A stretch of DNA of 64,000 nucleotides. It comes from Streptomyces sp. NBC_00457 (GTDB lineage: Bacteria > Actinomycetota > Actinomycetes > Streptomycetales > Streptomycetaceae). The stretch is taken from contig NZ_CP107905.1 of the NCBI RefSeq assembly GCF_036014015.1, positions 3,348,001-3,412,000 on the forward strand. Direction: 5' to 3'. This document shows, one piece after another, positions 28,276-56,543 of the stretch. Position 1 is the stretch's first letter. Every line of letters starts with the position of its first letter. The position numbers and the translations under genes are program-made. The notes beneath the pieces are model-generated. The model was not told the DNA's origin. It made no database searches and saw only the letters and a program-made list of their open reading frames with translations.

Positions 28276-28285
28276 ACACTTCTGC

Positions 28286-36980: not shown

Positions 36981-37038
36981 AACTCGTATGACATAGGTAA
37001 CTCGTATGACGTATGACGTCAACCGGATGCCCTATAGT
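36981..37038. promoter_or_regulatory. Repeated operator-like motif and promoter upstream of the GntR gene
   Basis: AACTCGTATGAC occurs at 36981-36992 and 36999-37010, and GTATGAC again at 37011-37017, running into TGACGTCA. A plus-strand TATAGT (37033-37038) fits a -10 element, placing its -35 region inside the repeats. The region separates the decayed minus-strand operon from the GntR gene, the usual place for autoregulatory binding by a FadR-type repressor. Confidence 0.5.
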
Positions 37039-37079
37039 TGGCGAGCATTCGTGGTAAGGCACGGATCCCGGGGGTTGTC

Positions 37080-40348: not shown

Positions 40349-41230
40349 CTACTCGGCGTGCGAGGGAGCGTTCTCCAGTCCGCGGAGGACGGTTCGGAGG
40401 TAGGACAGCCCGTCACGGGCGAGGGTGTCCTGGGACGGGGCAAGCGGTCGCCAGATCGAGGCCGCGGTAGCGATGGCCTCGTTCTGCGCGGTGAACGACT
40501 CGATGCACACCGCGCCGCCGTAGCCGGTCGTGGCCAGGCCGGCGAGGAAGCGTGGCCAGTCGAAGTGGTCGGCGCCCGGGGCGCCGCGGTCGGTGCCGCT
40601 GACCTGGACGTGCTTGATGTGCGGACCAGCCGTGACGAGCGCCTCGTAGGGGTCGGCCTCCTCGATGTTCATGTGATAGGTGTCGATCATGAGACCGACG
40701 TTCGCGGGCAGGCCGTCGATCAGCTCCACCGCCTGCTCGACCGTGTTGACGACGCTCGTCTCATAGCGGTTGAGGGCCTCCACACCGATGCTCACGCCCC
40801 GCTCCCCCGCGTAGTCGGCCACGGGTCGCAGGGCGCGGCGGACGTCCGCGTAGCAGGCCGCGCGCTCCGCCGGTGACATGCGCCAGGTCCGCCCCACCGC
40901 GGCGTAGACCGGGCCGCCGACGCAGGGCGCGCCGACAGCCACCGCACTGTCCACACACGTTTTCAGGTACGCCACGGTGGAGGCGACGACCTCCGGCGGG
41001 GCGTTCACGAGGTCACGTCCGGGCGAGGTGACCGCACAGACGCCGACCGCGCGCAGGCCGTACGCCGCCAGCAGGTCCCGGGTGCGGGCCGGGTCCCAGT
41101 CGGCGGGTTGCTCGATCGGCAGCTCGACCGCATCGAAACCGAACGCGGCGATCCGCGGCACCAGTTCGGCCATGGCCTCGTCGTCGACCGGCGAGGCCCA
41201 GACCCACGGGTTGACACCGATGGTGTACAC
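40349..41230 (-). CDS. Ketose 3-epimerase-like sugar isomerase (TIM barrel)
   Basis: 293 residues. Metal-binding residues of D-psicose/D-tagatose 3-epimerases are readable: Glu in IGVEALNRYE, Asp in GLMIDTYHMNIEE, the His in HIKHVQVSGTDRG, and Glu in GAVCIESF. It starts MYTIGVNPWVW with no signal peptide, so it acts in the cytosol on imported sugar. It is the last gene of the CUT2 importer operon, 4 bp after the binding-protein gene. Related enzymes also isomerise 3-keto sugars, which would suit the neighbourhood; the substrate is not determined by sequence. Confidence 0.85.
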   Translation of the reverse strand: MYTIGVNPWVWASPVDDEAMAELVPRIAAFGFDAVELPIEQPADWDPARTRDLLAAYGLRAVGVCAVTSPGRDLVNAPPEVVASTVAYLKTCVDSAVAVGAPCVGGPVYAAVGRTWRMSPAERAACYADVRRALRPVADYAGERGVSIGVEALNRYETSVVNTVEQAVELIDGLPANVGLMIDTYHMNIEEADPYEALVTAGPHIKHVQVSGTDRGAPGADHFDWPRFLAGLATTGYGGAVCIESFTAQNEAIATAASIWRPLAPSQDTLARDGLSYLRTVLRGLENAPSHAE

Positions 41231-41234
41231 CGGA

Positions 41235-42419
41235 CTACTTCCAGCGCCGCGGGTAATCGGGCAGGTCGGTGCAGCCGCACATCGCGTAGTGCAGCGGCGG
41301 CATGGTGGGGTCGACGTACTCGTCCAGGTTGTCCTGGGTGATGGTCGGCTGTGGCAGCTTCCACGGGTTCGGCACCTGCTCGCCGTCGAGGATCTTCAGC
41401 GCGGCGATGATCGGGGTGCGCCACTGGTAGGTCGGGTAGGTCGGGGCGATCGCCGTGAGCTTCTTGTCCTTCCACAGCTTCAGGAAGTCGAGCTGGTCCT
41501 CGCCGTTGATCGGCGGCACGGGCTTGCCGGCGTCCTCGAACGCCTCGACCGCCGCGCCCGCGACCGCCCCGGCGTCCATCCAGACGCCGTCGATCGTGCC
41601 GTACCGCTGGATGTAGTCGTTGACGATCTTCTTCGTCCTGGCCGGGTCGCCGTCGGTGAACTCGACGCCGACGACGTCGACGCCCGCCTTGTCGAAGGCG
41701 ACCTTCGCCGCGGACCAACGGGTCTCCAGCACGTCGACGCCGGGCAGGATGCGCAGCGCGAGCACCTTGCCGCCCCGCCTCATCTTCTGGGTGACGAACT
41801 CCGCCGCGACGTGGCCGAATCCGTAGCCGCCGATCGGGTTGATGAACGTCACCGGGCAGGTCGTGTCGACGCCGCGGTCGAAGACGATGACCGGCAGGCC
41901 CTTCTGGCAGGCGGCTTTCACGGCCGGGGTGAGCGTCGCGGTGGTGTTCGGCGAGACGATGAGCGCGTGGCAGCCCTTGCCGAGCAGGTCGTTGATGTCG
42001 GCGATCTGCTTCTGGTCCTTGCCCTCGGCATCGACGTGGACGAACTCGGAGATCCGGCCGCGGTGCGTGTCGACCTCGGCCTGCATGGTCTTGAAACCGA
42101 CCTGGCGCCAGGGGTTGTTCAGCCCCGCGTTGGAGAAGCAGATCTTGTACGGTCCGGGCTTCTTGAACTTCGCGGTCTCCACCATCGCCGGGTTGAGCGC
42201 CTGCTCCCAGGGCTTGCCGGCCGGCCCGGTGGGCGCGGCGTCCAGGAGCGCGAGCTGCTCGTCGTAGTCGGCCTGCACGAAGAACTTCGACTGCTTCCCG
42301 GTGCCCGACCCGGTGCCCGCGGAGGGCGAACTCGATGCGCCGGTGGTGGGCTCGTCGGTGGCGCAGCCGGCCAGCACCAGTAAGGTGCACACGGCCAGCA
42401 CCGTCATGGAATGCCTCAC
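41235..42419 (-). CDS. Sugar-binding lipoprotein of CUT2 ABC importer
   Basis: 394 residues from GTG 42419 (AGGGGA upstream; an ATG four codons later is possible). The signal peptide ends in the lipobox VLAGC. Mature part is a type-1 periplasmic-binding fold: YKICFSNAGLNNPWRQVGFKTM, CHALIVSPNTTATLTPAVKAA, PVIVFDRGVDTT, DGVWMDAGAVAGAAVEAF. It binds a mono- or oligosaccharide for the adjacent permeases. Codon 13 is TTA (42381-42383), so synthesis should depend on the bldA tRNA. An unusually long insert between lipobox and domain is Ser/Thr/Gly-rich. Confidence 0.87.
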   Translation of the reverse strand: MRHSMTVLAVCTLLVLAGCATDEPTTGASSSPSAGTGSGTGKQSKFFVQADYDEQLALLDAAPTGPAGKPWEQALNPAMVETAKFKKPGPYKICFSNAGLNNPWRQVGFKTMQAEVDTHRGRISEFVHVDAEGKDQKQIADINDLLGKGCHALIVSPNTTATLTPAVKAACQKGLPVIVFDRGVDTTCPVTFINPIGGYGFGHVAAEFVTQKMRRGGKVLALRILPGVDVLETRWSAAKVAFDKAGVDVVGVEFTDGDPARTKKIVNDYIQRYGTIDGVWMDAGAVAGAAVEAFEDAGKPVPPINGEDQLDFLKLWKDKKLTAIAPTYPTYQWRTPIIAALKILDGEQVPNPWKLPQPTITQDNLDEYVDPTMPPLHYAMCGCTDLPDYPRRWK

Positions 42420-42429
42420 TGGATCCCCT

Positions 42430-43401
42430 TCATCTGGACGGGAAACGGAAGGACGCCGCCGCCACGGCGAACAGAATGATCGCGCCCTGGACGGTCGGTT
42501 TGAGGGCGCCGGAGACGCCGTAGAAGTTCATGACCGTGAAGAGCGTCTCGAGGGTCAGCGCGCCCAGCATCGCGCCGACGACCGAACCGCGGCCCCCGCC
42601 CAGAGCGACACCGCCGAGGACCGCCGCGGTGATCGCGCCGAACTCCAGGCCGGCACCGGCCTGGAACGACACTCCGCTGTACCCGCCGATGAGGATCGCC
42701 GCGAGCGTGGCGGCGAGTCCGCTGAGGACGAACGCCATCGTCTTGGCGCGCCACACGCGCACGCCGCTCAGCTCGGCGGTCCGCGGGTTGCCGCCGACGG
42801 CGACCAGGGTGCGGCCGAAGTCCGAACGCGTCAGCACCAGCAGCAGAGCGGCCGCCGCCACCAGGATGACCAGGGCGTACGGTATCCGGCCCAGCGCGGG
42901 CACGTCCTCGAACGCCGACCGACCGAGCCGGCGGAACTCCTCGGAGAGACCACCCTTCGGGGCACCGTCGGACCACAGGTACACGGCACCGACGAGGATG
43001 AGGAACATCCCGAGGGTCGTGATGAACGACGGCACCCGCAGCCGCGTGGTGATGAGGCCGTTGACGAGGCCGACGGCGATGCCGAACGCGAGCAGGAGCA
43101 CGACGACAGGCCATCCGGCCGACGGATCGCCGTCGATCAGCCGGGCGGCGATGACCACCTGCGCGGTGACCAGAGAGCCGACGGACAGGTCCAACTCGCC
43201 GGAGACGATCACGAAGTACTGGCCGGCGGCGAGCAGGATGACCGGCGCGGAGCGACCGAGGAACGACATCAGCGACGGCGGCGAGAGAAAGTCCGGTTGA
43301 CGGGCGGTCAGCAGAACCAGCAACACCGCCAGGATCACGATGATCGGTGCGAGACCGCCGGAGCGGAACTTAAGGAGCCGCAGTGGGCGCGCGATCCGCA
43401 T
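42430..43401 (-). CDS. CUT2 sugar ABC transporter permease 2
   Basis: 323 residues with 8-10 hydrophobic segments. The CUT2/RbsC signature region reads VSGELDLSVGSLVTAQVV near residue 65 and GGVALGGGRGSVVGAMLGAL near 265, with RTLVAVGGNPRTAELSGV between. It forms the channel with the next gene. It is separated by 10 bp from the binding protein gene downstream and by 1 bp from permease 1 upstream. Confidence 0.88.
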   Translation of the reverse strand: MRIARPLRLLKFRSGGLAPIIVILAVLLVLLTARQPDFLSPPSLMSFLGRSAPVILLAAGQYFVIVSGELDLSVGSLVTAQVVIAARLIDGDPSAGWPVVVLLLAFGIAVGLVNGLITTRLRVPSFITTLGMFLILVGAVYLWSDGAPKGGLSEEFRRLGRSAFEDVPALGRIPYALVILVAAAALLLVLTRSDFGRTLVAVGGNPRTAELSGVRVWRAKTMAFVLSGLAATLAAILIGGYSGVSFQAGAGLEFGAITAAVLGGVALGGGRGSVVGAMLGALTLETLFTVMNFYGVSGALKPTVQGAIILFAVAAASFRFPSR

Positions 43402-43402
43402 G

Positions 43403-44374
43403 CTATGACGCCTTTCGCATCGCCCGGCGGGCGTAGACGGCGACCGCCGCGATGATGATCACGCCACGGATCACCTGCTTGAAGAACACGTCGACCTCGA
43501 GCTGGTTGAAGATGGCGTCGATGCTCGCGAGCAGCAGCACGCCGCCGACCGTGCCGACGACGCCGCCGCGCCCGCCGGCCAGGGCGGTGCCGCCGAGCAC
43601 CACCGCGGCGATCGACTCCAGGTCGTACAGTCCCTCGGTGCCCACCCTTGGTGCGCCGGCGCCGAGCCGGCTGGCGAGGTAGACCCCGGCGAGGCCGGCG
43701 CAGAGGGCGCACAGCACATGGGCGGTGACGAGGACCCGGCTGCCCCGGACGCCGGAGAGCCGGGCGACCTCCGGGTCACCGCCCACGGCGATCAGGTGGT
43801 GGCCGAAGCGGGTGCGCGCCAGCACGAACCAGGCTGCGGCGGCGACGGCGAGCAGCAGCAGGAACGACAGCGGCACCGGGCCGATGCGCTGGTATCCCAG
43901 GCCCTGCACCAGAGCGGGTGCGGTCTTGCCGGCCGGGCCGTCGTATCCGTTGTCGAGGTATCCCTTCAGCAGTAGTCCGACGCCGACGGTCGCGATGAAG
44001 GGGTTGATCCGCGCTGTGGTGACGAGCAGGCCGTTGACGAGGCCGATCGCGCTGCTGACGGCGAGCGTCAGGCCGATCGCCGGCAGCAGCGCACCGTCGT
44101 CACCGGCCATGGTCTCGGCGGCGACGAGGGTGCTCAGGCTGACCACGTACGCCACGGACAGGTCCAGCGAGCCCCCGATGATGACCAGCGTCTGGCCGAC
44201 CGCGACGAGGCCCAGACCGGCGGCGACGTGCAGCAGGCTCACCGTCGTCGGCAGGCTGAACAGCCGGCCGCCGTCGGCCGTGACGATGAGCCAACCGATC
44301 GTCAGGGTGAGGATCAGGGCGACGAACACGCCGGGCGGGGTCCGCCGGGCCGTCAGGGACAGCGCGCCGCTCAT
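43403..44374 (-). CDS. CUT2 sugar ABC transporter permease 1
   Basis: 323 residues from ATG 44374, which overlaps the ATPase stop (ATGA); the frame is open further upstream but belongs to the ATPase gene's shadow. Family marks are IIGGSLDLSVAYVVSLSTLV, HHLIAVGGDPEVARLSGV and GGTALAGGRGGVVGTVGG. A paralogue of permease 2, as in RbsC-type heterodimers. Confidence 0.87.
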   Translation of the reverse strand: MSGALSLTARRTPPGVFVALILTLTIGWLIVTADGGRLFSLPTTVSLLHVAAGLGLVAVGQTLVIIGGSLDLSVAYVVSLSTLVAAETMAGDDGALLPAIGLTLAVSSAIGLVNGLLVTTARINPFIATVGVGLLLKGYLDNGYDGPAGKTAPALVQGLGYQRIGPVPLSFLLLLAVAAAAWFVLARTRFGHHLIAVGGDPEVARLSGVRGSRVLVTAHVLCALCAGLAGVYLASRLGAGAPRVGTEGLYDLESIAAVVLGGTALAGGRGGVVGTVGGVLLLASIDAIFNQLEVDVFFKQVIRGVIIIAAVAVYARRAMRKAS

Positions 44375-45882
44375 CCGGCCGCCTCCGGCACGGTGCCGAC
44401 CGCCAGGGCGACGACATCCTCCTCCGTCGCGCCGGCGGGTAGCTCGCCGGCGATCCGGCCGTCGCGCATGACGATGATCCGGTCGCTCATGCCGAGCAGC
44501 TCGGGCAACTCGGACGAGACCATCAGCACGGCGGCGCCGTCGCGGGCCAGCCGGCGGACGAGATCGTGGATCGCCGACTTGGCGCCCACGTCGATGCCCC
44601 GGGTCGGCTCGTCGAAGAGCAGGATCCTCGGGGCGAGCGCGAGCCACCTGGCCAGCACGACCTTCTGCTGGTTGCCCCCGGACAGGAAACGGATCTCCTG
44701 GTCCTCCCCTGCGGCGCGAAGCTCGACGGCCGCGAGCAGCTCCCGGACCCGCGCGGTCCGGGCACCGCGGCCGACCCGGCCCGGGCGGACGGCGCGGTCG
44801 GCCAACAGCGCGTTGTCGAGCACCGACTGCTCGGCGACGATCCCCTCGCCCTTGCGGTCCTCGGAGACGTAGGCGATACCGGCCCGCATCGCGGCGCGGG
44901 GCGAGCGCAGCCGGACCGGCGCTCCGTCGACGGTCACCTGGCCGGTGCTGAACGGTGCGGCGCCGAACAGCGCGCGGGCCAACGCCGACCGGCCGGCGCC
45001 CTGCAGGCCTCCGACGCCGAGCACCTCGCCGGCGCGCAGCCGTAGGTCGATGCCGCGCAGCTTCCGGTTGCCTCCGCCCCGGACGGTCAGCCGCACCGGG
45101 CCCAGCTCCTGCGGCTTCGCCGGGTCGGGGTAGTAGCTCGACAGCTCGCGGCCGACCATGTGGCGCACCAGTTGATCGGCGCCGGTGTCCGCGGTGTCCA
45201 AGGTGGCCACCGCCCGGCCGTCCTTGAGCACGGTGATCCGGCTGGACAGGTCGAAGACCTCCTTGAGGCGGTGCGAGACGTACAGCACGCCTATCCCCTG
45301 CTCCTGCAGCCGCCGTACGAGCGCGTAGAGCTGGTCGACTTCGTGGTCGGCGAGAGCCGCGGTGGGCTCGTCCATGATGAGCAGCCGCGCGTCGAGGGCG
45401 AGCGCCTTGACGATCTCGACCACCTGTTGTTGCGCCACGCCGAGTCGTCCCACGCGCGTTTCGGGCGGTATCGAGCCCTCCCCGATCGAGGCGAGGAGCC
45501 CCGCGGTGTGGCTGAGCATCGCCCTGCGGTCGACGAGCCCGCGGCGCAGGGGCTCGCGGCCCAGACAGACGTTCTCCGCGACGGTGCGCTCGGGCAACAG
45601 GGTCAGCTCCTGGTAGACGATGCCGATACCGGCCTGTTGGGCCTCACGCGGGCTGCGGAACGTCCGCGGTGCGCCGGCGAACTCAACCGTTCCCTCGTCG
45701 GGCTGGTGGACGCCGGACACCACCTTCATGAGCGTGGACTTGCCGGCGCCGTTCTCGCCGACGACCGCGTGCACCTCGCCGGGCCGGACCTGGAGGTCGA
45801 CGCCATCGAGCACCCGCACGCCGAGGAACGACTTGCCGATGCCTCGCAGAGCGAGCAGCGGCGACGGCGGCAGGCCAGACAT
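44371..45882 (-). CDS. CUT2 sugar ABC transporter ATPase (two-domain)
   Basis: 503 residues from ATG 45882, with GAGGG upstream. First nucleotide-binding half: VVGENGAGKSTLMKVVSG (Walker A), LGVAQQQVVEIVKAL (degenerate signature), LLIMDEPTAAL (Walker B), VLYVSHRLKEVF. Second half: LQGAGRSALARALFGA (degenerate Walker A), FLSGGNQQKVVLARWLA (signature), ILLFDEPTRGIDVGAK. This asymmetric duplicated architecture is that of RbsA/XylG/MglA. Promoter-distal genes are the two permeases, binding protein and epimerase; the 509-bp upstream region contains direct repeats. Confidence 0.9.
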   Translation of the reverse strand: MSGLPPSPLLALRGIGKSFLGVRVLDGVDLQVRPGEVHAVVGENGAGKSTLMKVVSGVHQPDEGTVEFAGAPRTFRSPREAQQAGIGIVYQELTLLPERTVAENVCLGREPLRRGLVDRRAMLSHTAGLLASIGEGSIPPETRVGRLGVAQQQVVEIVKALALDARLLIMDEPTAALADHEVDQLYALVRRLQEQGIGVLYVSHRLKEVFDLSSRITVLKDGRAVATLDTADTGADQLVRHMVGRELSSYYPDPAKPQELGPVRLTVRGGGNRKLRGIDLRLRAGEVLGVGGLQGAGRSALARALFGAAPFSTGQVTVDGAPVRLRSPRAAMRAGIAYVSEDRKGEGIVAEQSVLDNALLADRAVRPGRVGRGARTARVRELLAAVELRAAGEDQEIRFLSGGNQQKVVLARWLALAPRILLFDEPTRGIDVGAKSAIHDLVRRLARDGAAVLMVSSELPELLGMSDRIIVMRDGRIAGELPAGATEEDVVALAVGTVPEAAG

Positions 45883-46052
45883 CGTGGGACCCTCTACATT
45901 TCGCGTCGTCAGCAGGATTGAGTCACCGATAGCTGAATCGTCGAATAGCATCGAACTTTCGCCGGATTCGATGGCGACATCGCGGCCCGAGGGTAAATGC
46001 CTCGATGAGCCCTGGCAATACCACCGGACATCACAGCAGGGCGTTCGCCGTT

Positions 46053-46200
46053 GCCAAAATCTGTTATCAAATCGGCCCGTCCACAGTCGCGCGCCGAACC
46101 GCGACGACTGATACGCAAAATGTGTTATGGAATCGCCCCGACGACAGTCGCGCACCGAACCGCGATGATTGATGCGCAAAATGTGTTATGGAAACGGCCG
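46053..46200. repeat. 61-bp direct repeats in the divergent regulatory region
   Basis: Between the ABC ATPase gene and the divergent ThuA/quinoprotein gene (45883-46391), an AAAATnTGTTATnnAA word starts at about 46056, 46117 and 46178, exactly 61 bp apart. The two complete units also share ACAGTCGCGC, CCGAACCGCG and GATACGCAAAA-like ends. The region is much more AT-rich than its surroundings. The regular spacing (close to six helical turns) suggests cooperative binding sites for a regulator of both divergent transcripts. The rest of the gap holds the presumed promoters. Confidence 0.65.
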
Positions 46201-46391
46201 CACTCGAACCATATTGACTGTTGCGATACGCCGCTGCATGCTGGCCGCCAGACCACGGGAGACGGTCGCATCTGGTGTGACGCCCCCTCTCTTCCGTAGG
46301 GATTGACTGCCCGTCACGGCGGACGGAATGACGAGCTGCCGGCGCGTGCCCGTGGTCATGCCATCGTTGCTCCGCCGAAATAGGAGACGGC

Positions 46392-49300
46392 ATGCGTCGC
46401 GTCATATTTATCTTCGGGGTGATCGCGAGCGTGCTCCTGTCGCTCGTCGTCGCCCAACCGGCGTCAGCGGCGCCGGCCTTCCGAGCCCTTGTCTTCACGG
46501 AGACGGCCGGCTACCGGCACGATTCGATCCCTGCCGGCCTCGCGATGTTCCGGGAGCAGGCGGCGGCCAACAACTTCGAGTTGGTCCACAGCGAGGACTC
46601 GAGCGTTTTCACCCCGGCAAACCTCGCCACCTTCGACGTGCTCATCATGTTCCAGACCTCGGGAATGGTGTGGAACACGGCGGCCCAACGTCAGGCGGTG
46701 GAGGGCTACCTCGCCGGCGGCAAGGGCATCGTCGCGATCCACAACGCCACAGACATGGGCATCGAGAACGAGTACCCGTGGTGGGACCAGACCATCAACG
46801 GCGGCGCACACATGCCGGAGCACTCCCCCGGCGTGCTGCCCGGCACCGCCGTCGTCGCGGACAAGAAGCACCCGTCGACGGCCGGCCTGCCGGACCGATG
46901 GAACCGCAGCGAGGAGTGGTACAACTTCGACCGCAACTCCCGCGGCGACGTCCACGTCCTGGTCACCGCGGACGAGCGCACGTACAACCCGGGCCCCCGC
47001 GCCATGGGGCCGGACCACCCCATCTCCTGGTGCCGCAACACCGGCGGCGGCCGCGTGTGGGCCACCGCCATGGGGCACACAAGCGCGGCCTACAGCGAGA
47101 CCCATTTCCGCAACCACGTCCTCGGGGGCGTCAAGTGGGCGGCCGGCAACGAGCCCGGCGACTGCGGCGGCACCGTGTGGAGCAACTTCGAAAAGCGCAC
47201 CCTCGACGACAACACCGCGGACCCGATGGCTCTCGCGGTCGCCCCGGACGGGCGGGTGCTCTATGTCCAGCGGGCCGGTCAGCTGAAGATCTTCAAACCG
47301 ACCACGAACAGCACCGTGACAGCCGGCACGCTCAGCGTCTACACCGGCGGCGAGGACGGCCTCACCGGACTGGCGCTCGACCCCGACTTCGCCAGCAACG
47401 GCTACGTGTACCTGTATCACTCCCCGGCCGGAGTCCCGAACGACATCAACCGGGTCTCCCGGTTCACGCTCACCGGCGACACCCTGAACATGTCGAGCCA
47501 GGTGACGATCATCGACATCCCCGCGACCCGGGACCGCACGTTCGCCGAGCCCGGGCACACGGGCGGGTACATCGAGTTCGGCCCCGACAAGAACCTCTAC
47601 ATCGGCACCGGGGACGACGTCCCACCGAACCTCGACTCCAACTGGCAGGGCTACGCCCCGCTGGACTGGCGGCAGGGCAAGGCCAACCTCGACGCCGCCC
47701 GCACCGCCGGCAACACCAACGACCTGCGTGGCAAGCTCCTGCGCATCCGGCCGTCGGCCGACGGCGGCTACACCGTCCCGGCCGGCAACCTCTACCCGCA
47801 GGGCACAGCGCAGACCCGGCCGGAGATCTACGCGATGGGCTTCCGCAACCCGTTCCGCTTCTCGATCGACCCGGACAACGGGTGGGTCTACCTCGCCGAC
47901 TACGGCCCGGACCGGAACCCGCCCGCGACCAACCGCGGCCCCGAAGGGCTCGTCGAACTCAATGTCATCAAGGCCCCGGGCAACTACGGCTGGCCGTTCT
48001 GCCACGGCGACAACCAGGCCTACGCGCCCTACAACCCGAGCACCGGCGTCGTCGGCGCCAAGTTCAACTGCAACGCGCCGGTCAACAACTCGCCGAACAA
48101 CACCGGCCTGACCAGCCTCAAGCCGATCGTCGCGCCGAACATGTGGTACGGCTACGGCGTCTCACCGAACTTCCCCGAACTCGGCTCCGGCGGCTCGGGG
48201 CCGATGGGCGGACCGGTCTACCGCTACGACGCCGCGAACCCGTCCGAGACAAAGTTCCCGCCCTACTACGACGGGGTCCACTTCTTCTACGAGTGGTCGC
48301 GCCACACCGTCAAGGAGGTCCACTTCGACTCCGCGACCGCGGTCACCCGGACCAACTCCTTCCTGCCCGCCGCCAAGTTCCTCAAGCCGATGGACATGGA
48401 GTTCGGGCCCGACGGTTCGTTGTACCTGCTCGAATGGGGCACCAACTTCGGCGGTGGCAACAACGACTCGGGTCTTTACCGCATCGACTACAAAAACCAG
48501 GGCGGGCGGGCGCCGACAGCCAAGGCCACCGGAACGCCCACCAACGGTGACGCGCCGTTGACCGTGCAGTTCAGCAGTGCGGGGTCCACGGACCCGGATC
48601 CCGGCAGCACGCTCAGCTACCACTGGACGTTCGGCGACGGCACCACGTCCACGGCGGCCAACCCGTCACACACCTACACCGCCAACGGCAACTACACCGC
48701 CCAGCTCAAGGTCACCGACATCACCGGCAAGACAGGCTTCGCCAACGTGCCGATCACCGTGGGCAACACCGCACCGAAGGTCACCGTCACGATTCCGCCC
48801 GACGGCGGCATGCTGGACTTCGGCGACCGCGTCTCGTACAAGGTGTCTGTCTCGGACCCCGGCGGCGCGCCCATCGACTGCACCAAGGTGTTCGTCAACC
48901 CCGCCCTCGGCCACGACGACCACCAGCATGAGACCACGGACTACCCGGGGTGCTCGGGCACCATCGACACGACGCTGCTCGGCGGGCACCCTGACGGCGC
49001 CAACCTGTACTACGTCCTCAACGCCCGTTACACCGACGACGGCGGCCCCGGCGGTGCGGCTCCGCTCACCGGCTACGCTCACGCGATCCTCCAACCCAAG
49101 CACAAACAGGCCGAGTTCTACACGGACCAGTCGGGTGTGCAGGTCGTCGAGCAGGCCGGCGCGGAGAGCGGCAAGCGGGTCGGCAACATCTCCGACAACG
49201 ACTGGATCGCGTTCGACCCGATGAGCCTGTCGGGCATCACGAACGTGAGCTACCGCCTGTCGTCGCCGAGCGGCGGCGGATCGATCGAACTGCGCGCCGA

Positions 49301-49946
49301 CTCCCCGACCGGCACACTCCTGGCCACGACACCGGTGCCCAGCACCGGCGGCTGGAACAACTACCAGTCCACGCCTGCGGTGAACACTGCCGATCTCGCC
49401 GGCTCGCACCGGCTCTACCTGGTGTTCAAGGGCACCTCGAACAACTGGTTCGACCTCGACTCGCTTACCTTCGGCGGCAACGGGGTCGGCGAACCGGGCG
49501 GCGGCGGTGGCGGCGTGGCCGGTCGGACCTGGACGGTCGCAGCGCAGCACAGCGGCAAATTCATGGACGTCAACGGCGCCTCGACCGCTGACGGCGCCCA
49601 GATCGTCCAGTGGCCGGCCACCGGCGGCAACAACCAGAAGTGGCAGGCCGTCGACGCAGGTGGCGGCGCCGTCCACCTGAAGGCGGTGCACAGCGACAAG
49701 TGCCTCGCCGTGACCAACGGCTCCACCGCCCAGGGCGCGTTCCTGCAGCAGTCCACCTGCGACAACGGCAACCCGCAGAAATTCCTCGTCACACCGACCA
49801 CCACGGTGGGCGTGTACACGGTGAAAAGCCTCCCCAGTGGACTGTGCGTCGACGTCAACGGCGGCTCGACGGCCGACGGTGCACGACTCCTGCAATGGAG
49901 CTGCCACAGCGGCACCAACCAACAGTGGCGGTTCACCGCCGTATAG
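46392..49946 (+). CDS. Secreted ThuA - PQQ sugar dehydrogenase - PKD - CBM6 - CBM13 fusion
   Basis: 1184 residues. Signal peptide about 1-27 (ends PASAA). ThuA-like domain about 30-255: RALVFTETAGYRHDSIPAGL, HPISWCRNTGGGRVWATAMGHT. Quinoprotein glucose/sorbosone-dehydrogenase propeller about 265-695: His389 in GHTGGYIEFGPD and Arg485 in GFRNPFRFS match PQQ-site positions of soluble aldose dehydrogenases. A PKD module follows (about 705-790, YHWTFGDGTTSTAANP), then an Ig-like stretch (PKVTVTIPPDGG), a CBM6-like jelly roll (about 905-1030), a Gly-rich linker and a CBM13 trefoil (about 1040-1184). It probably oxidises bound glycans outside the cell. It is transcribed away from the importer operon. 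Confidence 0.85.
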   Translation: MRRVIFIFGVIASVLLSLVVAQPASAAPAFRALVFTETAGYRHDSIPAGLAMFREQAAANNFELVHSEDSSVFTPANLATFDVLIMFQTSGMVWNTAAQRQAVEGYLAGGKGIVAIHNATDMGIENEYPWWDQTINGGAHMPEHSPGVLPGTAVVADKKHPSTAGLPDRWNRSEEWYNFDRNSRGDVHVLVTADERTYNPGPRAMGPDHPISWCRNTGGGRVWATAMGHTSAAYSETHFRNHVLGGVKWAAGNEPGDCGGTVWSNFEKRTLDDNTADPMALAVAPDGRVLYVQRAGQLKIFKPTTNSTVTAGTLSVYTGGEDGLTGLALDPDFASNGYVYLYHSPAGVPNDINRVSRFTLTGDTLNMSSQVTIIDIPATRDRTFAEPGHTGGYIEFGPDKNLYIGTGDDVPPNLDSNWQGYAPLDWRQGKANLDAARTAGNTNDLRGKLLRIRPSADGGYTVPAGNLYPQGTAQTRPEIYAMGFRNPFRFSIDPDNGWVYLADYGPDRNPPATNRGPEGLVELNVIKAPGNYGWPFCHGDNQAYAPYNPSTGVVGAKFNCNAPVNNSPNNTGLTSLKPIVAPNMWYGYGVSPNFPELGSGGSGPMGGPVYRYDAANPSETKFPPYYDGVHFFYEWSRHTVKEVHFDSATAVTRTNSFLPAAKFLKPMDMEFGPDGSLYLLEWGTNFGGGNNDSGLYRIDYKNQGGRAPTAKATGTPTNGDAPLTVQFSSAGSTDPDPGSTLSYHWTFGDGTTSTAANPSHTYTANGNYTAQLKVTDITGKTGFANVPITVGNTAPKVTVTIPPDGGMLDFGDRVSYKVSVSDPGGAPIDCTKVFVNPALGHDDHQHETTDYPGCSGTIDTTLLGGHPDGANLYYVLNARYTDDGGPGGAAPLTGYAHAILQPKHKQAEFYTDQSGVQVVEQAGAESGKRVGNISDNDWIAFDPMSLSGITNVSYRLSSPSGGGSIELRADSPTGTLLATTPVPSTGGWNNYQSTPAVNTADLAGSHRLYLVFKGTSNNWFDLDSLTFGGNGVGEPGGGGGGVAGRTWTVAAQHSGKFMDVNGASTADGAQIVQWPATGGNNQKWQAVDAGGGAVHLKAVHSDKCLAVTNGSTAQGAFLQQSTCDNGNPQKFLVTPTTTVGVYTVKSLPSGLCVDVNGGSTADGARLLQWSCHSGTNQQWRFTAV

Positions 49947-49957
49947 CCCGTCCGAAC

Positions 49958-49991
49958 GGGATGCCCGGCGCGGTTGCGCGCCGGGCATCCC
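49958..49991 (+). terminator. Strong terminator hairpin
   Basis: GGGATGCCCGGCGCG (49958-49972) pairs perfectly with CGCGCCGGGCATCCC (49977-49991) over 15 bp with a 4-base loop, 12 bp after the stop of the ThuA/quinoprotein gene. Confidence 0.8.
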
Positions 49992-50017
49992 TCCCTACGA
50001 ACAGGTGAGGAACCGCC

Positions 50018-51499
50018 ATGGTGTTTCGGATACCTCGGCCACTCCGGTCCGGACGGCTGTCCGCGCTGGGCACAGCCCTGGTGCTTGTCGCCGTCGGCGC
50101 CACCGCGGTGGCGGCACCGATCGAGCCCGGGCAGAGCGCCCCCATCGTGGGCGCGCAGTCCGGCCGCTGCCTGACCGTCCCCGGCGCCGGCACCACCAAC
50201 GGCACCCAGACCCAACTCTGGGACTGCACCAACGCAGCCGGCCAGACCTGGACCTACACCGCCGGCAAACAACTGACCGCCCACGGCAACAAGTGCCTCG
50301 ACGCCAGCGGACGCGGCACCACCAACGGCACCCCGGTCATCATCTGGGACTGCAACGGCCAGAACAACCAACAGTGGAACGTCAACCCCAACGGCACCAT
50401 CACCGGCGTCCAGTCCGGACTATGCCTCGACGCCAACGCCGCTGGCACCGCCAACGGCACCAGAACCACCCTCTGGTCCTGCCACAACGGCACCAACCAG
50501 CAGTGGAACTCGCCGACCCCGCCAGTGCCGGGCGGCGCGGGCACGTGCGACATCTACGCCTCGGGCGGCACCCCCTGCATCGCCGCCCACAGCACCGTAC
50601 GAGCGCTCTACGGCACCTACAACGGCAACCTCTACCAGGTCCGGCGCTCGTCCGACAGCACGACCCGGAACATCGGCGTCCTGAGCGCGGGGGGCGCCGC
50701 CGACGCGACGACGCAGGACTCGTTCTGCGCGGGGGCCACCTGTGTCATCACCGTCGTCTACGACCAGTCCGGCCGCGGGAACGACCTGTGGTACCAGGGA
50801 TCGAGTGTGGTTCCCGGCTCCAACCAGAGCCGCCCGGCGATCGCGACGTCGGAGTCGCTGGCGGTCGGCGGCAGCAAGGCCTACTCGCTCTACATCAACC
50901 CCGGCAACAGCTACTGGCGGGACGGCCACCTGACCGGCGTGCCGACCGGCAGCGCCCCCGAAGGCATGTACATGGTGACCAGCGGCACCCATGTCAACGG
51001 CGGCTGCTGCTTCGACTACGGCAACAGTGAGACGACCCGAGCGGCCGACGCGGCCGGGGCGATGGACGCGATCAATTTCAGCACCCAGTGCTGGTTCGGC
51101 GGGTGCGCCGGCACCGGCCCATGGGTCCAGGCCGACCTCGAATGGGGGCTCTACTCCGGTGGCAGTCAGACCTGGAACTCGAACCAGCGGGCCTTCACCA
51201 GCAAGTTCGTGACGGCGATGTTGAAGAACAACGGGACGAGCCGTTTCGCGCTCAAGGGTGGCAACGGCCAGACCGGAAGCCTGACCACGCTCTGGGACGG
51301 CGCGCTTCCGCCCGGCTACAGCCCCATGAAGAAGCAGGGCGCCATCATCCTCGGCAGCGGTGGTGACTGCTGCAAGCCCGGCGGCGGCGCGAACCTCAGC
51401 GCCGGCACCTTCTACGAGGGCGCGATGGTGTCCGGATACCCGTCCGACGCAACCGAGAACGCGGTACAGGCCAGCATCGTCGCCGCCGGCTACCGCTGA
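50018..51499 (+). CDS. Secreted GH54 alpha-L-arabinofuranosidase with N-terminal CBM13
   Basis: 493 residues, GAGGAA before the ATG. Signal peptide about 1-33. A CBM13 trefoil at about 40-163 (GQTW, NNQQW, TNQQW) precedes the catalytic domain (about 170-493), which begins GTCDIYASGGTPCIAAHST. GH54 features are VYDQSGRGNDL, a Cys-Cys pair in HVNGGCCFDYGN, WVQADLEWGLYSGG with the nucleophile-position Glu, LGSGGDCC with the acid-position Asp, and the ending FYEGAMVSGYPSDATENAVQ. It releases arabinofuranose side chains from arabinoxylan or arabinan. Fungal GH54 enzymes carry a different C-terminal CBM, so the lectin at the N-terminus is a bacterial arrangement. Confidence 0.88.
   Translation: MVFRIPRPLRSGRLSALGTALVLVAVGATAVAAPIEPGQSAPIVGAQSGRCLTVPGAGTTNGTQTQLWDCTNAAGQTWTYTAGKQLTAHGNKCLDASGRGTTNGTPVIIWDCNGQNNQQWNVNPNGTITGVQSGLCLDANAAGTANGTRTTLWSCHNGTNQQWNSPTPPVPGGAGTCDIYASGGTPCIAAHSTVRALYGTYNGNLYQVRRSSDSTTRNIGVLSAGGAADATTQDSFCAGATCVITVVYDQSGRGNDLWYQGSSVVPGSNQSRPAIATSESLAVGGSKAYSLYINPGNSYWRDGHLTGVPTGSAPEGMYMVTSGTHVNGGCCFDYGNSETTRAADAAGAMDAINFSTQCWFGGCAGTGPWVQADLEWGLYSGGSQTWNSNQRAFTSKFVTAMLKNNGTSRFALKGGNGQTGSLTTLWDGALPPGYSPMKKQGAIILGSGGDCCKPGGGANLSAGTFYEGAMVSGYPSDATENAVQASIVAAGYR
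50142..50506 (+). repeat. CBM13 cassette, inverted near-identical copy of 37932-38292
   Basis: Covers IVGAQSGRCLTVPG through GTNQQW of the GH54 protein. Protein-level differences from the beta-helix lectin are limited to a handful of residues (for example AGTT for STTA, N for G after DCT, AH for VY). Confidence 0.8.
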
Positions 51500-51524
51500 G
51501 TCGCTCCATCCAGGGACGGGCACG

Positions 51525-51562
51525 AGTGAAGGCGGTACGTGACATCACGTGCCGCCTTCACT
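51525..51562 (+). terminator. 18-bp inverted repeat terminator after the GH54 gene
   Basis: AGTGAAGGCGGTACGTGA (51525-51542) and TCACGTGCCGCCTTCACT (51545-51562) are reverse complements apart from one position that would be a G-U wobble in RNA. Only 2 bases separate the arms, so the folded loop takes in a few end pairs. Confidence 0.75.
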
Positions 51563-51833
51563 CCCTCCGTGGCGAGCCGGGGTGCATCTGTGGCGTCGCT
51601 CGGACGGTCGGCGGCCGGCGGTCGCGTCGCCGGCAGCCGCGGCCAAGCTCGTCGAGGTCACCGACTTCGGCGCCAACCCGACGAACCTGCGCATGTACCT
51701 GTACGTGCCGGACCGCCTGGCGGCGCGGCCACCCGTCCTGGTCGCCGCGCACTACTGCGGGGGAAGTGGCCCGGCCTTCCACGACGGAAGCCCGTACGCC
51801 TCGCCGGCGGACCGGTGGCAGTCCGGCCGCTGA
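51549..51833 (+). pseudogene. N-terminal fragment of a CE1/PHB-depolymerase-type esterase
   Basis: After an Arg-rich unrelated start, the frame reads LVEVTDFGANPTNLRMYLYV and PPVLVAAHYCGGSGPAFHDG then SPYASPADR. This is the beginning of a secreted acetylxylan-esterase-like alpha/beta hydrolase, including the oxyanion HY(C)GGSG loop. It ends at a stop before any Ser nucleophile, and the signal peptide is lost. With the hairpins around it, it fills the 51500-51963 gap. Confidence 0.65.
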
Positions 51834-51912
51834 CGGCCCTCCGGCTACACACCGACCTGGCCGTGGGTCGACCTGGCGTTCCTGACGTCAGCCGCCCCCG
51901 GCCCGGGAACCC

Positions 51913-51947
51913 GGAAGGGCCACCGCACAGTGGCAGGTGGCCCTTCC
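51913..51947 (-). terminator. Terminator hairpin after the ThuA/DUF1080 gene
   Basis: GGAAGGGCCACC (51913-51924) and GGTGGCCCTTCC (51936-51947) form a perfect 12-bp stem with an 11-base loop, 17 bp beyond the stop of the minus-strand gene. Confidence 0.75.
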
Positions 51948-51963
51948 AGTGTGCCGCGTCAGC

Positions 51964-52362
51964 TCAGGGCAGGGTCCATTTCTGGTTGGTTCCGCCGTGG
52001 CAGGTCCACAGGTGCACGAGGGTGCCGTCCGACGAACCCGCGCCCGACACGTCCAGGCACTTGCCCGACTGCGGGTTCCGCAGCGACCCGTCCGGGTTCG
52101 CCTGCCAGTTCTGGTTGGCGCCACCGTTGCAGGACCACAACTGGACTCTCGCCCCGTCCGCCGTGCTGTTACCACTGACATCCAGGCACTTGCCCAACGC
52201 CTTGATCGTCGACCCCGGCGTCACCGTCCACTGCTGCCCCACCAAGCCCGTACACGACGAGATCTGCACCGCCGTCCCATCCGCCGAGCTGCCGCTCCGG
52301 ACATCCAGACACTTACCCGTGAGCCCCACGATCGGACCCGCTCCGGGTGTCGGGCCGCCGCC
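51964..52362 (-). repeat. 399-bp lectin tail, direct copy of 53700-54098
   Basis: The 3' ends of the ThuA/DUF1080 gene and of the quinoprotein gene match along their whole 399 bp; by eye I count about 17 mismatches and no gaps, several of them synonymous. This includes the PGAGPIVGL linker and the entire trefoil up to the stop codon. Confidence 0.85.
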
Positions 52363-53670
52363 CAGCTCCTTGATCCGGACGTTGCGGAACGATACGTCGT
52401 CCCCCGTGCCGTGATTCTGGATGCCGACGTGGCCGGCGAGCGAGCGGGCGGGGTCGGTGTTGGTGAAGTCATTGATCTTCACGCCATTGAGCCAGACCTG
52501 GAGCCGCTCGCCCTCCACGAGTAACTCGAAGGTGTTCCACTCGCCCGGTGGGTTGAGCGCCGCGTCCCGGGCAGCCGTGTCCGGGGCCTTGATGGCGTAG
52601 ATCGAGCCAGTCGTGCGGTCAGTCGCGTCGGTGGCGTCGATCTGGACCTCGTAGCCGTTGTTCAGTGCCGACGACGGGTCGCTCGACGGTGGGAAGCCCA
52701 CGATCACGCCGGAGTTGTCGTCGCCGGGCATCTTCCAGTCCAGCTTCAGCGAGCAGTTGGTGAACTGCCGGGCGCTGTACCAGAGCATGCCCAGGCCGCC
52801 GTACGAGGCGAGGGTGGCGTCCGAGTTGGTGAAGCCGCCTGGGCCGGCCTGCGACCAGCCGGTGGTCGAGCCGTTGTAGAGGGCCGTATAGCCGGTCTCG
52901 GGCCGGCAGTCGGCCTTGGTCCGGCCTGCCGCGTACCGGATGCCGCCGAGCAGGTGCGCCCGGAGGGCCGGCTCCGCGTACGACGCCTGGCTGTGCCCGC
53001 CGCCGGTGTAGAAGGACCGGCCCCCCGAGTGTGTCTTGCACCAGGTGTGCGGGTGGTCGGCGCCCATCGAGCCGCCCGAGTACGACGACTCGTCCAGCGT
53101 GGTGAGCACGCGCGCGGTGGTACGGGGGTTGGTCCGGAAGTTGTACCACTCATCGGTGCGGGTCCATGTCTGCGGCAGGTGAGCCGTCGCCGCGTGCGCC
53201 CGCCCCTCCACCTTGACGTCGGCCTGCTGGACAGCGGGGTGCGAGGCGAAGTAGGCGCCGACCAGCTCGCCGTAGAACGGCCAGTTGTACTCCGTGTCCG
53301 CGGCCGAGTGGACGCCGACGAAGCCGCCGCCTGAGCCGATGTACGACTGGAACGCCGACTGCTGGGCGTCGTTCAGAACGTCGCCGGTGGTGTTGAGGAA
53401 GATCACCGCCTCGTAGCGGCTCAGGTTGCTGGTGGTGAAGTGGTTGCCGTCCTCCGTGGCCGTCACCGTGAAACTGTTCGCCGCGCCGAGGTCGCGGATG
53501 GCCTGGATCCCTGCCGGGATCGAGTCGTGCCGGAAACCGGCCGTCTTGGAGAACACGAGGACGTCGTAGGGCGTGTCCGCGGCATTGACTGGGTTGGGCA
53601 GCCCGACGAGGGCCAGGGCGGCGAGTGTCGCGGCCGCCCCACCAAGCAGGCTTCGGGGTTGTCTGCGCAT
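51964..53670 (-). CDS. Secreted ThuA - DUF1080 (3-keto-disaccharide hydrolase) - CBM13 protein
   Basis: 568 residues from ATG 53670 (MRRQPRSLLGG). Signal peptide about 1-31. ThuA-like domain about 33-245: VLVFSKTAGFRHDSIPAGIQ, HSAADTEYNWPFYGELVGAYF, HPHTWCKTHSGGRSFYTGGGHS. DUF1080/3-keto-disaccharide hydrolase concanavalin-like fold about 258-440: YTALYNGSTTGWSQAGPGGF, DWKMPGDDNSGVIVGFP, PPGEWNTFELLVEGERLQVWLNG. CBM13 about 445-568. Codon 383 is TTA (52522-52524). It probably cleaves 3-keto-glycosides outside the cell after oxidation by its quinoprotein neighbours. It lies 29 bp downstream of the quinoprotein gene at 53700-56543, so they form one operon. Confidence 0.85.
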   Translation of the reverse strand: MRRQPRSLLGGAAATLAALALVGLPNPVNAADTPYDVLVFSKTAGFRHDSIPAGIQAIRDLGAANSFTVTATEDGNHFTTSNLSRYEAVIFLNTTGDVLNDAQQSAFQSYIGSGGGFVGVHSAADTEYNWPFYGELVGAYFASHPAVQQADVKVEGRAHAATAHLPQTWTRTDEWYNFRTNPRTTARVLTTLDESSYSGGSMGADHPHTWCKTHSGGRSFYTGGGHSQASYAEPALRAHLLGGIRYAAGRTKADCRPETGYTALYNGSTTGWSQAGPGGFTNSDATLASYGGLGMLWYSARQFTNCSLKLDWKMPGDDNSGVIVGFPPSSDPSSALNNGYEVQIDATDATDRTTGSIYAIKAPDTAARDAALNPPGEWNTFELLVEGERLQVWLNGVKINDFTNTDPARSLAGHVGIQNHGTGDDVSFRNVRIKELGGGPTPGAGPIVGLTGKCLDVRSGSSADGTAVQISSCTGLVGQQWTVTPGSTIKALGKCLDVSGNSTADGARVQLWSCNGGANQNWQANPDGSLRNPQSGKCLDVSGAGSSDGTLVHLWTCHGGTNQKWTLP

Positions 53671-53699
53671 GTCCGTCGCTCTCTTCTTGGTGACAGAAA

Positions 53700-54098
53700 T
53701 CAGGGCAGGGTCCATTTCTGGTTGGCTCCGCCGTGGCAGGTCCACAGGTGCACGAGGGTGCCGTCCGACGAGTTGGCGCCCGACACGTCCAGGCACTTGC
53801 CCGACTGCGGGTTCCGCAGCGACCCGTCCGGGTTCGCCTGCCAGTTCTGGTTGGCGCCACCGTTGCAGGACCACAACTGGACTTTCGCCCCGTCCGCCGT
53901 GCTGTTACCGCTGACATCCAGGCACTTGCCCAACGCCTTGATCGTCGACCCCGGCGTCACCGTCCACTGCTGCCCAGCCGAGCCCGTACACGACGAGATC
54001 TGCACCGCCGTCCCATCCGCCGAGCTGCCGCTCCGGACATCCAGACACTTGTTCGCGAGTCCGACGATCGGACCCGCTCCGGGTGTCGGGCCCCCGCC
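53700..54098 (-). repeat. 399-bp lectin tail, direct copy of 51964-52362
   Basis: Second copy of the shared CBM13 tail, in the same orientation 1.3 kb away from the first. Recombination between them would fuse the two genes and delete the ThuA/DUF1080 catalytic parts. Confidence 0.85.
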
Positions 54099-56543
54099 AG
54101 GATTGAAGGTGAACGCGTCGACGTCGAAGAGGAATCCGGAGCCGCCGGCGAAGGTCAGGTAGAGCGTGGTGGTGCCGGCCGGTGCACCGGAGATCGAGCC
54201 GTTGACGGTAGTGAAGTTCGTCCACGAGCCGGTGACCGGGACGGTGGCGGAGCCGAGGATGGTGCCGGTCGGCGAGCCGGCCCGAACCTGCAACGTGCCG
54301 CCCGCGCCGGCTGACGACACCCGGGCGCTGAACGACGTGGCGTTGCTCAGCTTGTACGGCTCGAATGCGATCCAGTCGCCGTTCTCGATGTCACCGACGG
54401 ACTTGCCGCCCTCGGCGGTCGACTTGTCCAAGGTGGCGATGCCGGACGATGTCTTGTAGTGCTCGGCCTGCCGGTGCTTCGGCTGCAGGATGTGCTGCGT
54501 GTGCGTGGTGAGCCCGGCGTTGTCGGTGTACTCGGCGTCGAAGACTCCGAAGATGTTCGCCGCGTCGTCGTGCTCACCGTCGACCGGGATGGTGATCGTG
54601 CCCGAGCAACCGGTCTTCGAGGTGATCGGGTGGCCGTGGCTGTCGTGACCGACGATGTACGTCAGCTTGACTTTGGTGCAGTCGACCGTGCCGTCCTCCG
54701 GATCCGTCACGGTGATACTGAACGGCACGGTGTCACCGAAGGCGAAGATCTCCCCCGCGGCGGGGCTGTTGATGGTCACGGTCGGCGCGGTGTTGCCGAC
54801 GGTGATCCGCACGTCGGCGGTGCCGGTGGCACCCTGCGGGTCGCGCACGGTCAGCGTGGCCGTGTAGTCGCCGTTTGTGTTGTACGTCTTCGTCGGGTTG
54901 GCGGCGGTGGAGCTGGTGCCGTCACCGAAGCTCCAGGCATAGGTCAGTGCCCCACCGTCGGGGTCGGACGATCCGGCCGAGGAGAAGGTCACGGTCAACG
55001 GCGCGGCGCCGGAGGTCCGGTTGGCGCCGGCCATCGCCGTGGGCGCCCGGTTGCCGCCGCCGACGTGGTCGAAGCGGTAAAGGGCGGAGTATTGGTCGCC
55101 CTGGTACAGCCCGGCGCCGTAGTCCAGCACGTAGTAGGAGCCGTCCGGGCCGAACGCCGAGTCGATCACCTGCTTGCCACTCCAGGGGAAGCTGTCGATG
55201 GTCCCCGGGGAGCCGTCGGCGTTGAGGTGGATCGGCTTGATCCAGCCGCGGCCGAACTCCGTGGCGAAGAACTGCCCGTCGAACGACTGCGGGAACTTCG
55301 TGGGCGAGCTGACGTCGGGGTCATACCGGTACACCGGGCCCGCCATCGGCGACTCCGAGCCGCCGCCGAACGCCGGCGGGCTGCCGGCGTCGCCGCCGTA
55401 ACGGATCCAGGCAGCCTTGGCGGGGGGCAGCGCGCTCAAGCCGGTGTTGCGGAACGAGTTGTTCGTCGGCCCGCCCGAGCAGTTGTATTTCGCGCCTGCC
55501 GTGTTGGTGGCGAAGTCCCACTCGGCGTACGTCTCGGAGCTCGTGTTCGTGCCGGTGCAGTATGGCCAGCCATAGAAGCCCGGGCCCGTGACGCGGTTGA
55601 ACTCGACCTGGCCCTGCGGCCCGCGCGCCGAGGTGGCGCCGGCATCGGGGCCGTAGTCGCCGACGTAGACGATGCCGGTGGCCTTGTCCACGCTCATCCG
55701 GAACGGGTTGCGCAGGCCCATCGCGTAGATCTCCGGCCGGGTCCTGGCCGTGCCGGGCGGGAACATGTTGCCTGCCGGGATCGAGTACGACCCGTTCTCG
55801 TTCACCTTGATTCGTAAGATCTTGCCGCGCAGGTCGTTGGTGTTGGCGGCGGTGCGCTGTGCGTCGAACGCCGGGTTGCGGTTGGCCCGCTCGTCGAGTG
55901 GGGAATATCCGGCGGACTCGAACGGGTTGGTGTCGTCGCCTGTGGACAGGTACAGGTTGCCTGCCGCGTCGAAGTCGATGTCTCCGCCGGCGTGGCAGCA
56001 GATACCTCGGTCGGCCGCCACGTCGAGGATGTCCACTCTGCTGGACTGGTTGAGCGTGAAGTCGGCGTTGAGCGTGAACCGGGAAAGCCGGTTGACACCC
56101 TGCCACGCCGACCAGTTGCCGCCGGTGGTCGGTGCGTCGCCTCCCGGTGTGGACAGCGGCGGGGCGTAGTAGAGGTAGATGTGCCGGTTGGTGGCGAAAC
56201 CCGGGTCGACGCCGATGCCCTGCAGGCCGTCCTCGTCGTGCACGTATACGGGGATGTTGCCGATCACCGTGGTGGTGCCGTTGGCCTCCGTGCGGCGCAC
56301 GGTCCCGTTGCGAGCGGTATGCAGCACCGACCGGTCGGCGAGTACGGCCAGCGACATCGGCTCACCGACCTCCGCGACCCCGCGGGCCAGTTGGACCTGC
56401 TGGAAGTCGGCGGCGTTGATCGGGTGCGCCGAGGCCGGGGTCGCACTGGACAAGGCCGCGGTGAGAGTGGCCGCGACCAGAAGCAGAGCCGAACCGATGA
56501 CCGGCCAACGCGCGACTGCGGCCCTCCTGATCTTCATGAACAT
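53700..56543 (-). CDS. Secreted PQQ sugar dehydrogenase - PKD - CBM6 - CBM13 protein
   Basis: 947 residues from ATG 56543, with AAGGGGAG 9 bases upstream. Signal peptide about 1-40 (ATPASAHP). Quinoprotein beta-propeller about 48-500: GLQGIGVDPGFATNRHIYLYY, His184 in CCHAGGDIDFD, Arg278 in GLRNPFRMS. A PKD module (about 503-590, YAWSFGDGTSSTAANP), an Ig-like stretch, a CBM6-like module (about 690-805) and CBM13 (about 822-947) follow. It is a paralogue of the 46392-49946 protein without the ThuA domain. Codon 243 is TTA (55815-55817). First gene of an operon with ThuA/DUF1080. No PQQ synthesis genes are in the window. Confidence 0.86.
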   Translation of the reverse strand: MFMKIRRAAVARWPVIGSALLLVAATLTAALSSATPASAHPINAADFQQVQLARGVAEVGEPMSLAVLADRSVLHTARNGTVRRTEANGTTTVIGNIPVYVHDEDGLQGIGVDPGFATNRHIYLYYAPPLSTPGGDAPTTGGNWSAWQGVNRLSRFTLNADFTLNQSSRVDILDVAADRGICCHAGGDIDFDAAGNLYLSTGDDTNPFESAGYSPLDERANRNPAFDAQRTAANTNDLRGKILRIKVNENGSYSIPAGNMFPPGTARTRPEIYAMGLRNPFRMSVDKATGIVYVGDYGPDAGATSARGPQGQVEFNRVTGPGFYGWPYCTGTNTSSETYAEWDFATNTAGAKYNCSGGPTNNSFRNTGLSALPPAKAAWIRYGGDAGSPPAFGGGSESPMAGPVYRYDPDVSSPTKFPQSFDGQFFATEFGRGWIKPIHLNADGSPGTIDSFPWSGKQVIDSAFGPDGSYYVLDYGAGLYQGDQYSALYRFDHVGGGNRAPTAMAGANRTSGAAPLTVTFSSAGSSDPDGGALTYAWSFGDGTSSTAANPTKTYNTNGDYTATLTVRDPQGATGTADVRITVGNTAPTVTINSPAAGEIFAFGDTVPFSITVTDPEDGTVDCTKVKLTYIVGHDSHGHPITSKTGCSGTITIPVDGEHDDAANIFGVFDAEYTDNAGLTTHTQHILQPKHRQAEHYKTSSGIATLDKSTAEGGKSVGDIENGDWIAFEPYKLSNATSFSARVSSAGAGGTLQVRAGSPTGTILGSATVPVTGSWTNFTTVNGSISGAPAGTTTLYLTFAGGSGFLFDVDAFTFNPGGGPTPGAGPIVGLANKCLDVRSGSSADGTAVQISSCTGSAGQQWTVTPGSTIKALGKCLDVSGNSTADGAKVQLWSCNGGANQNWQANPDGSLRNPQSGKCLDVSGANSSDGTLVHLWTCHGGANQKWTLP

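Follow-up and report, generated by a model that had tools for sequence, protein, structure and literature searches.

We analysed a window of 64 kb (the whole stretch of DNA under study) within the 10.8-Mb single-contig genome of Streptomyces sp. NBC_00457, and focused on a candidate exported glycan-processing system encoded there. At its centre are three large proteins. The forward-strand gene at 46392..49946 encodes 1184 aa with a ThuA domain (Pfam, 212.8 bits), a GSDH beta-propeller (122.5 bits; about 47142-48506), a PKD domain and the carbohydrate-binding modules CBM6 and CBM13. On the reverse strand, a second propeller-PKD-CBM6-CBM13 protein (53700..56543; GSDH 106 bits, propeller about 55044-56423) is encoded 29 bp upstream of, and in the same direction as, a gene for a ThuA-DUF1080-CBM13 protein (51964..53670; ThuA 272.8 bits, DUF1080/3keto-disac_hyd 133.5 bits, DUF1080 about 52369-52893). 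The latter frame is open for 636 aa, and an inferred ATG at 53670 gives 568 aa, in agreement with database prediction P0124. A sequence-only reading of this DNA had described three exported multidomain proteins combining these domains and ending in CBM13. Pfam confirms that architecture, but DUF1080 is in only one of the three, while ThuA and the propeller are each in two; the signal-like N termini of all three were judged by eye only. Among the matches listed, the closest named relatives of the window's proteins come from Streptomyces.

Between the ThuA-propeller gene and the other two large-protein genes sits a forward-strand gene for a CBM13-GH54 protein resembling alpha-L-arabinofuranosidases (50018..51499; ArabFuran-catal 457.3 bits). 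Divergent from the ThuA-propeller gene, a reverse-strand operon runs from 45882 down to 37920. It encodes a CUT2 double ATPase (44371..45882; ABC_tran 176.9 bits in two stretches), two CUT2 permeases (43403..44374 and 42430..43401; BPD_transp_2 110.6 and 139.2 bits), a CUT2 sugar-binding lipoprotein (41235..42419; Peripla_BP_4 122.4 bits, VLAGC lipobox identified by eye), an AP_endonuc_2 enzyme (40349..41230; 146.5 bits) and, as its final gene, a GH141-CBM13 protein with predicted export (37920..40298; GH141_M 40.7 bits, Ricin_B 106 bits). The starts of the ATPase gene and of the permease gene at 43403..44374 were inferred by inspection. The AP_endonuc_2 protein is closest to D-tagatose/ketose 3-epimerases (D-tagatose 3-epimerase 7ern, E 1.7e-46), so the importer and epimerase-like gene proposed earlier are borne out by their Pfam domains and this match. 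The three large proteins had also been said to flank the importer; by coordinates, all of them lie to its right, and it is the GH141-CBM13 gene, whose product matches BT_1002 (5mqp, E 3.2e-45), that lies to its left. This gene and the GH54 gene inside the span are two glycoside hydrolase genes that the earlier description omitted.

The divergent operons are separated by a direct repeat of 61 bp (46055..46187, without strand), present in two copies plus a third, partial one. Each copy bears a AAAATNTGTTAT-type box. Two such boxes occur at a related locus of S. djakartensis (L037), and they are absent from the eight other loci inspected; the repeat region is possibly an operator between the divergent genes. 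Adjoining the end of the importer operon is a forward-strand gene for a GntR/FCD regulator (37038..37850; FCD 89.2 bits, GntR 62.2 bits), whose role here would be regulatory. Farther left, the stretch 27047-34531 contains more glycan genes: two code for GH5-type proteins, one for a GH95 protein that has a lectin domain, and one for a CBM13 protein that weakly matches peptidase S9. No GFO/IDH domain was found among the 19 window proteins scanned with Pfam (27047-62733).

The domains at the core of the system are clearly recognizable. Both ThuA scores exceed the gathering cut-off of PF06283 (33.4 bits), and six His/Glu columns are conserved among 89 ThuA domains, five of them common to two cytosolic ThuAs of the same genome. 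ThuA is elsewhere tied to keto-sugar metabolism. The DUF1080 score likewise exceeds its cut-off (PF06439, 26.8 bits); of 27 domains compared, 23 to 27 keep the residues N-S-G, E-x-Q-x-D, Q-x-H-G and an R, many of which are also seen in solved DUF1080 structures. The domain drew no match from any NCBIfam model. The family has been linked to 3-keto-disaccharide hydrolysis (PMC9007349). Two other arrangements of these domains were encountered. At 9727000-9745000 of the same genome (L035), a cytosolic-looking ThuA gene stands beside a GFO/IDH gene, forming a thuAB-like pair. In addition, a 1090-aa protein of Streptomyces profundus (P0235) combines ThuA, DUF1080 and inositol-1-phosphate-synthase domains, according to precomputed Pfam assignments. 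The propeller has the six-blade fold of sugar dehydrogenases that use pyrroloquinoline quinone (PQQ), and the catalytic His144, Arg228 and Asn229 (numbering of the soluble glucose dehydrogenase, sGDH) are kept in 96 of 96 family members.

We then considered whether these domains occur together across genomes. The genome containing the window has matches to 10 GSDH, 7 ThuA and 7 DUF1080 domains; a DUF1080 lies within 10 kb of five of its six window-type propellers, and of none of its four other GSDHs. Among 197 genomes of the class, searched at E up to 1e-60 for the propeller and up to 1e-20 for DUF1080, the propeller was found in 46, DUF1080 in 43 and both in 42, which we assessed by a Fisher test. 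At least 150 propellers (with at most eight scored per genome) and 141 DUF1080s were listed, so that adjacency counts are lower bounds. At least 87 of the 150 listed propellers have a listed DUF1080 within 10 kb, compared with about 1.7 expected by chance for genomes of 7 Mb, and at least 34 of the 141 DUF1080s share the propeller's open frame. These statistics ignore the kinship of the genomes; however, fusions within one frame are evidence independent of genome relatedness. Of the 197 genomes, 33 have close relatives of the window's epimerase, and the propeller is also present in 30 of those 33. Measured against hand-picked listed propellers of epimerase-bearing genomes only, 24 of 45 epimerase matches lie within 10 kb of one. 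Of the 16 listed genomes that belong to the window's genus, the one containing the window is alone in having this epimerase, and the block is therefore patchy within the genus. Co-occurrence of the propeller with DUF1080 and with the epimerase exceeds chance. Propeller, ThuA and DUF1080 are genuinely linked, and a link between the propeller on the one hand and this epimerase and a CUT2 importer on the other is supported.

Related loci tell a similar story. We inspected the best 80 of at least 579 confirmed loci, counting neighbours within the flank taken (several contigs are short) and assigning their domains by small profiles built from the window's own genome, with seven proteins checked with Pfam. 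ThuA is within the propeller's frame at 65 of the 80 loci. Both CUT2 and AP_endonuc_2 neighbours are present at 27, DUF1080 at 18, GFO/IDH at 13, GH141 at 9 and genes resembling the ebo cluster at 7. In Actinoplanes aureus (L043), the order GH141, importer, ThuA-propeller, GH54 and ThuA-DUF1080 is the same, up to near the end of the contig. At 11 loci, Bacteroidota by their record titles, the propeller frame contains a CxxCH motif; it follows the propeller in nine of them, and in L091 and L115 it was established only that the frame contains it. Both such propeller proteins that were scanned have a Pfam cytochrome c domain (30.7 and 30.5 bits, cut-off 21.3), as does the neighbouring DUF1080 protein of one of these loci (25.4 bits).

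A paralogous set at 1828000-1847000 of the window's genome (L030) encodes a multicopper oxidase, a LacI regulator, a ThuA-propeller protein and a DUF1080 protein. The latter marginally matches a plastocyanin-like domain (22.1 bits against a cut-off of 21.2); this domain or the multicopper oxidase could possibly accept electrons.

Given this recurrent gene set, our best guess, to which we give about an even chance, is an exported system that oxidises and then cleaves plant-wall oligo- or polysaccharides. Because the propeller, ThuA and DUF1080 are constantly found together, the simplest scheme is extracellular oxidation followed by cleavage of the resulting keto-glycoside, and the presence of GH141, GH54 and lectin domains suggests branched glycans of the plant wall as substrates. 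Side chains would be trimmed by the GH141 and GH54 enzymes. Outside the cell, the propeller would then oxidise one of the bound sugar's hydroxyls, at C3 by analogy with the ThuA/ThuB and DUF1080 pathways, replacing the NAD (nicotinamide adenine dinucleotide)-dependent GFO/IDH dehydrogenase of the cytosolic version. In Bacteroidota, cytochrome c would receive the propeller's electrons; in actinomycetes, copper proteins may do so. The keto-glycoside would be processed and split by ThuA and DUF1080, and the product would be imported by the CUT2 importer and epimerised. The gene linkage, the propeller fold, its conserved triad and the redox domains of relatives are direct observations; we infer the C3 position, the cofactor, the substrate and the order of the steps.

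Several lines of evidence weigh against this scheme. In sGDH, an RxR clamp (Arg406 and Arg408) holds the PQQ carboxylates, and it is present in six of six solved relatives aligned. In sequence alignment of the 96 family members, the position of Arg408 is Arg in none and that of Arg406 in 25. Lys377 corresponds to Lys or Arg in none of the 96, although this is a weak criterion, as the solved relative 7cdy also has Ala there. No PqqC match was found in the window's genome or in 43 others of the 46 propeller genomes; this search is usable because two genomes of the same set scored above the cut-off. Even in these two PqqC-positive genomes, the clamp is absent from five of five propellers. In a search of the window's genome for PqqE, the best score was 58.4 bits against a cut-off of 381, and the same weak matches occurred in all 14 control genomes. 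Because the clamp is missing, we do not class the propeller as a classical PQQ dehydrogenase, and we rejected the GSDH/PQQ family name as proof of PQQ use. Among the four other GSDHs of the genome, three retain the RxR and the fourth (506 kb) lacks it. This fourth propeller (L008, about 506119-507075) has the sequence RNPWRF like the window's family, and may be another altered branch.

Other observations point in the same unfavourable direction. In none of the three large proteins did Pfam reveal a cytochrome domain or a certain copper domain. The remaining conserved ThuA column, that of His186, has a residue other than His in both cytosolic ThuAs, and the activity of ThuA may therefore differ. 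The C3 chemistry and the substrate are assigned by analogy. Finally, consistent absence of the expected neighbours was not found; yet 36 of the 80 related loci have none of DUF1080, CUT2, AP_endonuc_2 and GFO/IDH in their flank. We consider the sequence-only scheme a plausible outline whose chemistry is unproven and which is vulnerable at its PQQ step.

Despite these caveats, activity like that of a sugar dehydrogenase is the better guess for the propeller. PQQ may still serve, because fungal AA12 enzymes bind it through other residues and organisms can take it up (PMC6881789); the cofactor would be PQQ held in an unusual manner, or another redox cofactor. A more specific proposal, which is possible but which we regard as less likely than not, is that Actinomycetes and Bacteroidota share an exported glycan-oxidising family whose PQQ pocket was rebuilt to accept another redox cofactor or to hold PQQ differently: a P-M-D-type motif would replace RxR, and an invariant Arg would have been gained behind Arg-Asn-Pro. 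This family, joined to copper or cytochrome c domains, would cooperate with ThuA and DUF1080 at the surface of the substrate, where keto-glycosides would be formed and cleaved without NAD.

A rather unlikely alternative is an ordinary hydrolytic cluster that forms no keto-glycoside. In it, the propeller would serve as a binding or structural domain without redox activity, with DUF1080 as a GH16-like glucanase and ThuA as an accessory hydrolase. Loss of the PQQ-holding residues fits such a role, and hedgehog-interacting protein (HHIP), an animal binding protein with no enzymatic role, is a relative of the propeller in sequence and fold. The GH141, GH54, GH95 and GH5 genes close by also suit hydrolysis. 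However, redox work is favoured by the invariant His-Arg-Asn and by the cytochrome c domains of the Bacteroidota relatives, and the involvement of ThuA elsewhere in keto sugars also argues against simple hydrolysis. The DUF1080 member of Thermogutta, for its part, was reported to be an endo-xanthanase/glucanase (PMC10881899), an activity proposed in PMC5673643; this finding supports the hydrolytic explanation and counts against oxidation before cleavage. It is improbable that the propeller is a PQQ aldose dehydrogenase of the ordinary kind that obtains its PQQ from elsewhere, oxidising released sugars at C1 to aldonic acids and perhaps feeding electrons onward like fungal AA12, with ThuA and DUF1080 independent of it. 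The propeller fold would allow this, AA12 holds PQQ by a residue set other than that of sGDH (PMC6881789, PMC6881810), AA12 is reported to drive lytic polysaccharide monooxygenases (LPMOs; PMC5960967), and organisms can take up PQQ, with non-producers such as E. coli relying on environmental supplies (PMC6881789). However, a simple C1 enzyme leaves unexplained why linkage to DUF1080 and ThuA is so strong and why fusions with them occur, and the clamp is lacking even where PqqC is present.

The ebo-like genes raise one further explanation. Such a cluster adjoins propeller and ThuA or ThuA-DUF1080 genes at L031 (2193000-2212000 of the window's genome), L058, L060, L064, L080, L096, L104 and L109. 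It comprises an EboA domain, EboE, an EboC-like prenyltransferase and a TatD-like protein, with an Inos-1-P-synthase-like gene in place of the sugar phosphate cyclase EboD (ebo composition according to PMC5133447). The module might therefore contribute to the chemistry, outside the cell, of a metabolite of the cyclitol or prenyl type made by the ebo-like genes, with plant glycans secondary. At L031, a locus paralogous to that of the window, the EboA domain (169.3 bits), EboE (427.2 bits, cut-off 250), the prenyltransferase and the synthase-like gene agree with this idea, as does recurrence at seven of the related loci. We nonetheless consider it very improbable, as the other 73 of 80 have no ebo-like genes in their flank, none is among the window genes scanned, and the CBM and GH domains indicate polysaccharides.

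If oxidation and cleavage outside the cell is correct, soil actinomycetes and Bacteroidota would have an extracellular, NAD-free oxidant acting on polysaccharide, and thus a further oxidative route of biomass turnover. Protein clusters in their thousands that now go by the names 'ThuA domain-containing', 'PQQ-dependent sugar dehydrogenase' or 'lectin' would also acquire a function (of the candidates scored, 7596 and 4661 matched). With a rebuilt pocket, hydrolases, lyases and LPMOs would be joined by a route that works without NAD.

The gene set itself is real and recurrent, and no such exported actinomycete system was found described in the open-licence literature; in the literature covered, known keto-glycoside pathways are in the cytosol or periplasm. 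ThuA/ThuB form one such 3-keto-glycoside pathway, and a broad 3-keto pathway of gut bacteria was reportedly described in 2024. Others are LacABC with DUF1080 of Caulobacter and the 3-ketotrehalose hydrolase BT2157 (PMC9007349), and GlycDH/AtOGE/AtHYD of Agrobacterium (PMC10628242). The window's system resembles these pathways in its ThuA and DUF1080 domains, in the proposed oxidation before cleavage, and in having an AP_endonuc_2 enzyme and sugar importer nearby. It differs in that the proposed oxidant is an exported beta-propeller rather than a GFO/IDH or LacABC dehydrogenase, in that its proteins bear CBM6 and CBM13, and in that its AP_endonuc_2 enzyme is closest to ketose 3-epimerases. Unlike the bacterial PQQ sugar dehydrogenases sGDH and Asd/Adh (1cru, 3a9g, 3das), the window's family lacks counterparts of Lys377 and Arg408 and mostly of Arg406, and its propellers are fused to ThuA, PKD and CBM domains, with ThuA/DUF1080 partners. 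Fungal AA12 enzymes (CcPDH and TrAA12) are likewise exported six-blade propellers that can carry a CBM (PMC6881789, PMC6881810). The exported endo-xanthanase THTE_1561 shares the DUF1080 domain, but is reported to act on unoxidised glucans (PMC10881899), whereas we propose that the window's DUF1080 acts after oxidation.

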